Below, in pieces: positions 33,001-36,000 of a stretch of 64,000 bases of DNA (position 1 is its first letter; each line of letters starts with the position of its first letter). The notes below the pieces were generated by a model that was not told the DNA's origin, did no database searches, and saw only the letters and a program-made list of their open reading frames with translations. Source of the DNA: Datnioides undecimradiatus (taxonomy: Eukaryota > Chordata > Actinopteri > Lobotiformes > Datnioididae); contig WARS01000052.1 in assembly GCA_008933995.1 (NCBI GenBank), positions 2,728,001 through 2,792,000 of the forward strand, in the 5' to 3' direction. A program made the translations under genes and the position numbers.

Positions 33001-36000
33001 CGCCGCTACAGAGAGGGGCAGCTAGCATGGCGCTGCCTTAAAGCTCGACTGAAGCCTCTAATGCCTCCACTTTGCTTTAAATGCTGCGGTGTCTGAAAAC
33101 AATGTGCATCGGGACACGACCCTCCTTAGCTGTCTGCTTCCTACAACACACACGGCTGTGCACCGGCATGTGTTGGAAACCTTTAGCGTGCTAGCTCTCG
33201 CTCTGCAGTTTTGCCGTGGTATCTCTCAGCTGTTGGTTTGGACTCATGTATCCCTCATTGCATGCGCTTCATAACAAGTGTTTTGCATTCTCCCCCCCCC
33301 CTCCCTCCGATTCCCTCTCTTTGTTCCTCTTTGTGTTCCCGCCAGATGTTTCAGCCCATGATTTTGTTCATCCTCATTCTCGTTTTCTTCTCATCTCTCT
33401 CATACGCCGTCATCTTTAAGTTGGTCTTTCTCTTTGCGCTTTTCTTCGTACTCTAGTCCGTTTGTTCTTCTCCACACCGTGTAGTCTGTTAGTTGACCCC
33501 CCCCCCTCTGCTTATATTCTTTACCCATTTTCTGTTTTATTTTTGTTTTGTTTTTTCCCCCGCCCGCTTTCTTTCCTCGTCCCCTCACCCCGTTTGTCGT
33601 CTTCTGTCTGTTTTGTCCACGATCCACCTCACACATCTGCCCCCCCGGCCACCACAACCTGCACCCCTGTATCCTGCACCTGTCACCCATTTCCTTCTAA
33701 CCCCTTACACCCACACCGTCCTCACCTTCCCCCGACCCTTCCCTCCCCTTCCCCACCCCACGTCACTCACAGTCCGGTCAGAGGGATGAGCTGGAGTGGC
33801 GTCTAGGACAGGAGCGAGGCGTGGAGCCCCAGAGCCAGAGCCAGGGTGGGGGCCAGGCCCAGAGCAGGGGAGCCACGGGACTCACTAGGTACCACAGGCC
33901 CCTGGCTTTAAGAGCAGAGGTCAGTGCCTCCTCCCTCCTCCATCTCCCTTCCACCTGTGGGACTGAGTTGACACTGGCTCCACCATGAGCCCCGTACACA
34001 GGCCTTCTGTCGACCTGGACTCTATTTTCTAACCATTTCAGCTGATTCAGAGCCCGAATCTGGTTTCTCCTCTGTAGAGCGATGAGTCCTTTCTCTCCCA
34101 TGGTGAAATGTTGCGATACTGCAGCTCTGCGCGGCCTGTAGATGCTCCAAAACTACCCAAAGCATGTAATTCTCAATTTATTTAGTCACATTTACGTCAC
34201 ATCGTGGTCAAACCTCAAGCAGAGTAAATGTCGGAAGAGAACGAGAGTCCAAAGTAGAAGTTTTGTGGGTTTTTGGCGTTTTGTTTTTGAGCTGTCGGCC
34301 CAGAGAAGCAGCGCACCATGGCATGGAAAGACTTAACTTGCCCTACAGTGAAGTAATGCACAATATTTACAGGTACAGGCCAGTTCTGTTCTGATTTACT
34401 GGACACGAAATATAGATATAAAAAACACAGTTTACCATACCAAACAAAACTCAGGCTCTGAACGTTGCCAGCCAATACATGTGAAGTGTTTCGGAGCATT
34501 GGTCCGATTCTGAGTTTACAGGGAATCAAAAGGGTTGGTTATGATCGGAAGGTCACTCAGTCCAACATGTCTAGTGACGCTCCAGCCACAGTCACTTTTT
34601 GATGCTGAACACGATTTCACTTCATCCACTCACTCTACTTTCACACTAAATATCCACTCCTACAGCCACTGAGCTTTATTTTATTTATTTTATTTTTTTT
34701 TATTTTTTACTCTTTTGTTTTTTGGTTTAACATTTTTCTTGCTGCTTTCTTAAATCAGTACCGTGCGCCCCTGGACAGTTTGTGATTGACTTACTCCTTT
34801 GATGAGCGAAAGGAGACTGTATAAAAGAGGAGTTTCTGTTTAAAGTCATTTCCTGCTCCAGATTTTTCAGTTGCATGCTGTGTTTTATATGAATTTATCT
34901 GCTGACTGACGGTTTGCCGCCCTCCAAAACAGCGTGAGACAGCAGCGCCATGCACAGCTACAGCATATCGACTTGTTAGGAGTCTGTATGGACTCAGTGA
35001 TGCCCTCTGGCACCGGTTTGCCAACCGCCGGCTGCACTGTCATGACTCGACTCAGCAAATTGAACCTATGCAAAACTGTGCAGCTTGCACAGAGGTGTCA
35101 CGGTCGCGCTTTAAACAAGGCACACCGAGGGACTCAAAGAGTGCAATCAAAGAGGCGAGCGGTAACGTTGCAGCCGCGCACACATCAGCTCAGATCGGTT
35201 AAATCCTTCAGTGACTCGGCTGTTTAATAAACCGGCTGTGTAATCGCAGGACACTGTGATTCATAATCGCTGCCTCATGCTTGTGTTCATAGAGAAATTG
35301 CACACTGTTATGTAATGCAGAGTACTGGCAGCGGTGATGTGACACACTACTATTACAGTTACAGATCCAGCACACACCACACTTCTTTGTGCCCCTGCGC
35401 TTTCTGCCGCAGTGTAATCTCTGAGGTGAAGTGAATGAATGGGAAAGCAGCTTGGATATGGCAGGATTAGCGCTGCGCTGTCGGCCCGTGCGATTTGCAT
35501 TTGACATTGGGCTGACAGGGAGGTGATCCAGGGTCAGCGCACACAGAACAGCTCAACTTACTGCTGGAGGGCGCACTCGACGCCCGCACGCGTCGCAGAA
35601 GACAGAAATGGCGTTATGAACCTCTGCAGGTCCCAAATTGTCAGAGTGCGCACTTGCAGGGATGTCCAATACACGAGCTGAAGAAGAATCATTACATTCA
35701 AAACCATAAACATGAGCATCTCATCTCCCTGCGAGCATTTTCCTGTAGGAGACAAATCAAACTCCACGTGCTCCCAGCTCCTATCGCGATTGCGCATAAG
35801 AATTCATGATTTGTTTATTTAAAATGCATTTTTTAAAACATAATAACCATCAAAACAGAAGGAATAACACACTAGTGATTTCATTAGCTTTATTTTGGAG
35901 CTAGAAACCATGATTTAGATGAAGCTTGTACGTTTTTGAGCTACTGTGAGTTTTGTTGACAGTCACTTTCTCAACATGCAGCATTTATAAAGTGATCTTG

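Follow-up and report, generated by a model that had tools for sequence, protein, structure and literature searches.

The window, that is, the whole 64,000-nucleotide stretch of the Datnioides undecimradiatus genome that was analysed, carries on its plus strand a gene of the MTCL/SOGA family, in which both domains looked for were found: the SOGA domain (PF11365, E 6.2e-68), located in a core exon of 1389 nt at 28113..29501, and the SOGA1-2-like_CC domain (PF14818, E 3.8e-22), located downstream in a region of approximate limits at 48493..48762. Two coiled-coil exons, likewise of approximate limits, lie upstream of the core (3573..3818 and 4783..4959). Downstream there follow a long-form coiled-coil exon of 225 nt with phase 0 at both ends (37792..38016) and a C-terminal region that includes TQT-like motifs (approximately 52523..54052). 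The earlier note had drawn the intron after the core exon as ending at 37791, thereby skipping a probable next coding exon of 147 nt at 33773..33919 (phase 0 at both ends), which is suggested by its phase, its splice sites and a likeness to what we take to be MTCL1 coding sequence; given this exon, the intron probably ends at 33772.

Inside this intron, at 33346..33456 of the plus strand, 36 mostly hydrophobic codons are followed by a TAG stop, in phase 0, and this stretch is the candidate alternative terminal exon with which the present analysis is concerned. Its CAG acceptor is preceded by a polypyrimidine tract of about 50 nt (33286..33345) and, on a coarse, home-made score, ranks second among the 253 AG sites between 29600 and 34000; on the same score the probable next exon has its acceptor, at 33773, in eighth place. 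The donor that would be spliced to it, CAG/GTAGGT at the end of the core exon, is also in phase 0 and lies 3844 nt upstream, such that a phase-matched acceptor and a stop are both present, as in an alternative terminal exon. The frame, the stop and the pyrimidine-rich acceptor 3' of the 1389-nt core exon had already been described in the earlier note, and the sequence and the acceptor rank bear that description out. The tail TAG is 316 nt from the probable next exon, and none of five kinds of poly(A) signal sought in this interval was found there; the first AATAAA 3' of the stop, a candidate signal from a motif scan, is located 1770 nt away (35226..35231). A protein ending at the TAG, with both upstream coiled-coil exons common to it and the long form, would have approximately 910-920 residues, as summed over recognised exons of approximate limits, and the position of the exon supports the earlier view that its use would remove the C-terminal half together with the central coiled coil, the PF14818 region included.

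Five MTCL-family loci were found in the source genome, namely the window gene, two loci on C307, one on C25 and one on C496. The window gene had been labelled MTCL2 (soga1), but it is MTCL1, because its neighbours match the human MTCL1 setting and it stands apart from the MTCL2-like pair. A Rab12-like exon and an NDUFV2 exon are present in its flanks (best PDB matches Rab12, E 1.9e-22, and NDUFV2, E 1.2e-26), and a Piezo unit was found nearby, in one of the two segments scanned. The available portion of a human 18p deletion study gives the gene order RAB12, MTCL1, NDUFV2 and, farther on, PIEZO2 (PMC11445036), so that MTCL1 has RAB12 and NDUFV2 as neighbours in both. In an unrooted tree of the five core blocks, based on about 100 columns, C25 and C496 group together (100), as do the two C307 loci (100), leaving the window gene alone; together with the RAB12-, Piezo- and NDUFV2-like neighbours, this grouping rules out MTCL2 identity. 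An AMP-binding gene of acyl-CoA synthetase type was also observed on the minus strand (L030, L031) between the MTCL1 gene and NDUFV2; the human 18p gene list, in the portion available, shows no AMP-binding gene between the two (PMC11445036).

Near one of the C307 loci there are weak ECH-domain matches, below the Pfam cut-off, which we read as ECHDC1; near the other, one gene combines a WWE domain with a sub-threshold RING match, and another, of R-spondin type, has a Furin-like_2 match. The available parts of two published studies locate SOGA3 next to ECHDC1 and within the interval RSPO3-RNF146-PTPRK (PMC7060313, PMC6996932). Both C307 loci are MTCL3-like. The C25 and C496 loci are presumed to be MTCL2-like, by exclusion and general sequence features only; a GKAP search around them gave a single gene, located on C496 at a distance of 1.8 Mb, and RB_A and TLD, sought on C25 and C496 as MTCL2 neighbours, gave no match. 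The C496 locus (L018:9029-10000, L019) is a second MTCL2-like locus of compact structure, with no tail exon detected in the 50 kb examined.

The tail exon of the window has clear relatives among these loci. At both MTCL3-like loci the same exon lies 3' of the SOGA core in phase 0, and each of the two encoded tails is identical to that of the window at 31 of 36 residues (86%), which agrees with the likeness to the MTCL3 hydrophobic tail proposed earlier; the spacing differs, with the exon following the core donor by 129 and 153 nt at the MTCL3-like loci and by 3844 nt in the window MTCL1. The search of the 581-Mb source genome with the tail listed these three loci only, also at E<=10, but it scored just three candidates and missed a copy on C25, and further copies are possible. 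That copy emerged from a local tblastn covering four 50-kb stretches: the C25 MTCL2-like locus carries a diverged tail exon of 34 codons with the stop at the same position, its acceptor sitting where the other copies have their third codon and the first three residues being absent. At 35.4 bits it exceeds all 300 shuffled window tails (best 29.3 at C25 and 30.4 at any of the five loci) as well as the reversed tail (25.8 bits), and the best match at C496, within the 50 kb examined, reaches 21.9 bits and is not above the shuffles. The exon is thus present in four of the five family loci found, preceded in all four copies by a phase-0 donor. Poly(A)-like motifs 3' of the stop are ATTAAA at +230 and +494 in the C307 copies and AATAAA at +657 in the C25 copy, with the first AATAAA of the window at +1770. 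The comparison across paralogues that the earlier note had called for, made here in one genome, accordingly turned up the exon in MTCL1, in both MTCL3-like genes and on C25, and failed to do so on C496. Outside the source genome, no relatives were confirmed among 241 pattern stretches of viral_contigs and 50 of genome_contigs, both of which are poor sources of fish genes, and no description of this MTCL tail exon was seen in the titles and abstract openings among the literature matches listed.

Exons of the long form also follow the tail exon elsewhere in the family. In the MTCL3-like loci, PF14818 exons are found 8.3 kb and 4.0 kb 3' of it, and at C25 long-form matches start about 10 kb 3'. 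The long-form coiled-coil exons observed at the two MTCL3-like loci are L004:8761-9789, L006:4384-4692 and L005:9112-9261, of which L006 and L005 contain PF14818. The order of core, tail exon and long-form exons is therefore common to three paralogue groups, which points to an origin before their split. The earlier proposal of a choice between short and long forms retained in MTCL2 holds as regards the in-phase exon and the long-form exons downstream of it, but it has to be moved to MTCL1, and the choice looks family-wide, since the C25 MTCL2-like locus has the tail exon and both MTCL3-like loci have long-form exons downstream.

The pattern of substitution suggests that the encoded peptide has been retained by selection. 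Between the window and the two C307 copies there are 24 and 22 base differences, distributed over the codon positions as 4:1:19 and 4:1:17, and the two C307 copies differ from each other by 17 silent and no replacement changes; the third-position excess over one third is significant in all three pairs (P 5e-6 and 3e-5 for the window/C307 pairs and 4e-6 for the C307 pair). The dN/dS values of 0.036 and 0.055 for the window pairs, and of 0.15-0.31 for pairs with the C25 copy, are rough, with silent sites being saturated (dS 1.4-2.4). Among the window and the C307 copies the exon is 77-84% identical, as compared with 18-45% in the 60 nt on each side, and the flanks are 25-43% identical to those of C25. 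For pairs with C25 the third-position share (18/42, 18/40 and 19/41) is not significant (P 0.13, 0.08 and 0.06). Selection on the hydrophobic tail, which the earlier note had claimed, is in keeping with the dN/dS of 0.04-0.06, the third-position excess and the lack of conservation in the flanks, and the reading of the tail exon as coding and under selection is, at the level of sequence, well supported.

Three other readings have to be weighed against this pattern. The exon could be regulatory, i.e. a poison exon or one for intronic polyadenylation, the use of which lowers the long form while the protein itself is unimportant. Premature termination would be compatible with an in-frame stop located 316 nt 5' of the next probable exon, and a GTRAG donor-like site, as a cassette exon needs, is found 214-382 nt 3' of the stop in both C307 copies and in the C25 copy; the window, however, has no GTRAG site within 500 nt 3' of its stop, and selection acts on the peptide, with third positions free, residues kept and flanks not conserved, all of which makes the regulatory reading unlikely. 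Somewhat less probable again is that the exon is a relic, used in the ancestor and in MTCL3 and no longer spliced in the MTCL1 of this fish. The divergence of the C25 copy and the lack of a detected copy at C496 would fit such decay, but the frame, stop and acceptor of the window exon are intact, dN/dS against MTCL3 is 0.04-0.06, and a record of 18 silent and 6 replacement changes after such a long period is unlike drift, even if pairwise values cannot place all the constraint on the MTCL1 branch. That the hydrophobic frame arose by chance in an intron rich in T and C can safely be dismissed: pyrimidines do abound in the stretch, and 6 of the 4256 plus-strand AG sites (one of them inside the tail exon) precede 30 open codons with a mean Kyte-Doolittle value >=2, but only 33346 and, weakly, 34666 among the six have a positive acceptor score, and the idea is refuted by the codon-position bias, by the shuffles (0 of 300 match as well) and by three homologous exons, all of them at MTCL-family loci, where they share the phase and sit 3' of the core and 5' of the long-form exons.

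Regarding the product, the coding exon would supply a membrane tail. The best 19-residue Kyte-Doolittle mean is 2.68 for the window tail, 2.62 for MTCL3 and 1.96 for C25, and an unweighted sum of approximate insertion energies gives -3.29, -3.42 and +0.62, respectively. Corresponding hydropathy peaks elsewhere are 0.62 in the core exon, 0.05 in the N-terminal exon and at most 0.68 in six further coding stretches, so that, by hydropathy and over the recognised short-form exons, there is one C-terminal candidate segment and none before it, in line with the transmembrane prediction made earlier for the 36-residue tail. AlphaFold2, run on the tail alone, returned one helix spanning residues 2-35 (mean pLDDT 97); a hairpin was rejected on this basis, with the model, which has no membrane, being weak evidence against it. 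A micropeptide initiated at the ATG within the exon was likewise not favoured, this ATG being absent in the C25 copy. Tail-anchored proteins, which are clients of GET/TRC40 or EMC, have a single hydrophobic helix at the extreme C-terminus. The predicted short form resembles them in its one C-terminal helix and differs in the length of its hydrophobic stretch, about 31 residues around a single lysine (residue 25). This lysine follows the first 20 hydrophobic residues and would sit on the lumenal side, which runs against the positive-inside rule. Hydropathy and the single helix thus fit a tail anchor, and lysine 25 and the length leave several topologies.

Taken as a whole, the sequence evidence makes it likely that fish MTCL1 has a true alternative terminal exon at 33346..33456, that this exon dates back to the common ancestor of MTCL1, MTCL2 and MTCL3, and that its use would give a predicted tail-anchored short form in which crosslinking would be kept and the stabilising C-terminus lost. 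In the mechanism we propose, the donor at 29501 would be joined to the acceptor at 33346, so that the SOGA core would be followed directly by a hydrophobic helix of 36 residues that closes the protein, and a poly(A) site 3' of the tail exon would be used. At the translation stop the whole tail would still be inside the ribosome exit tunnel, which is why insertion would have to be post-translational, as it is for tail-anchored proteins; the remaining protein would then face the cytosol. According to the available portion of a study of mammalian MTCL1, its N-terminal microtubule-binding domain and first coiled coil crosslink microtubules but do not stabilise them, stabilisation being due entirely to the C-terminal domain (PMC5546597). 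In the short form, the microtubule-binding region at the N-terminus and the first coiled coils would be retained and the stabilising domain lost. Because the crosslinking part would be kept, the stabilising part lost and an anchor gained, the short form may act as a membrane-built crosslinker that tethers ER or Golgi membranes to dynamic microtubules, the long form being the cytosolic, stabilising one.

This proposal can be set beside what has been described for the family. The described MTCL1 form (SOGA2, KIAA0802) is the long one; it is a product of the same gene and has the same N-terminal microtubule-binding region, coiled coils and SOGA core, but the available text assigns it a stabilising C-terminal domain (PMC5546597), for which, along with the central coiled coil, the short form would substitute the tail. 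MTCL2 (SOGA1) is reported, in the portion available, to use its N-terminal coiled coil for association with the Golgi membrane (PMC9782006). The MTCL2-like C25 locus shares the tail exon and the stop position with the window, but its tail is shorter by the first three residues and less hydrophobic, and none was detected at C496. SOGA3 usually terminates in this tail, also in the human annotation, where the part downstream is KIAA0408; in the window MTCL1, the tail exon is instead followed after 316 nt by the next probable exon. The downstream coiled-coil exons at the MTCL3-like loci suggest that a long form may exist for fish MTCL3 as well.

The attachment of MTCL proteins to membranes is generally ascribed to coiled coils and to partner proteins. 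With a conserved anchor exon, MTCL1 would have a form that attaches to membranes directly, and splicing would set crosslinking apart from stabilising; the hydrophobic tail of MTCL3 would be explained as the mark of the family's old short form. More tentatively, and with what we would put at a little under an even chance, all vertebrate MTCL genes may have inherited one switch, in which skipping the exon gives a long cytosolic stabiliser and using it gives a short membrane-built crosslinker, and the roles of MTCL1 and MTCL2 at Golgi and axon membranes may be exerted partly via an overlooked integral-membrane form.
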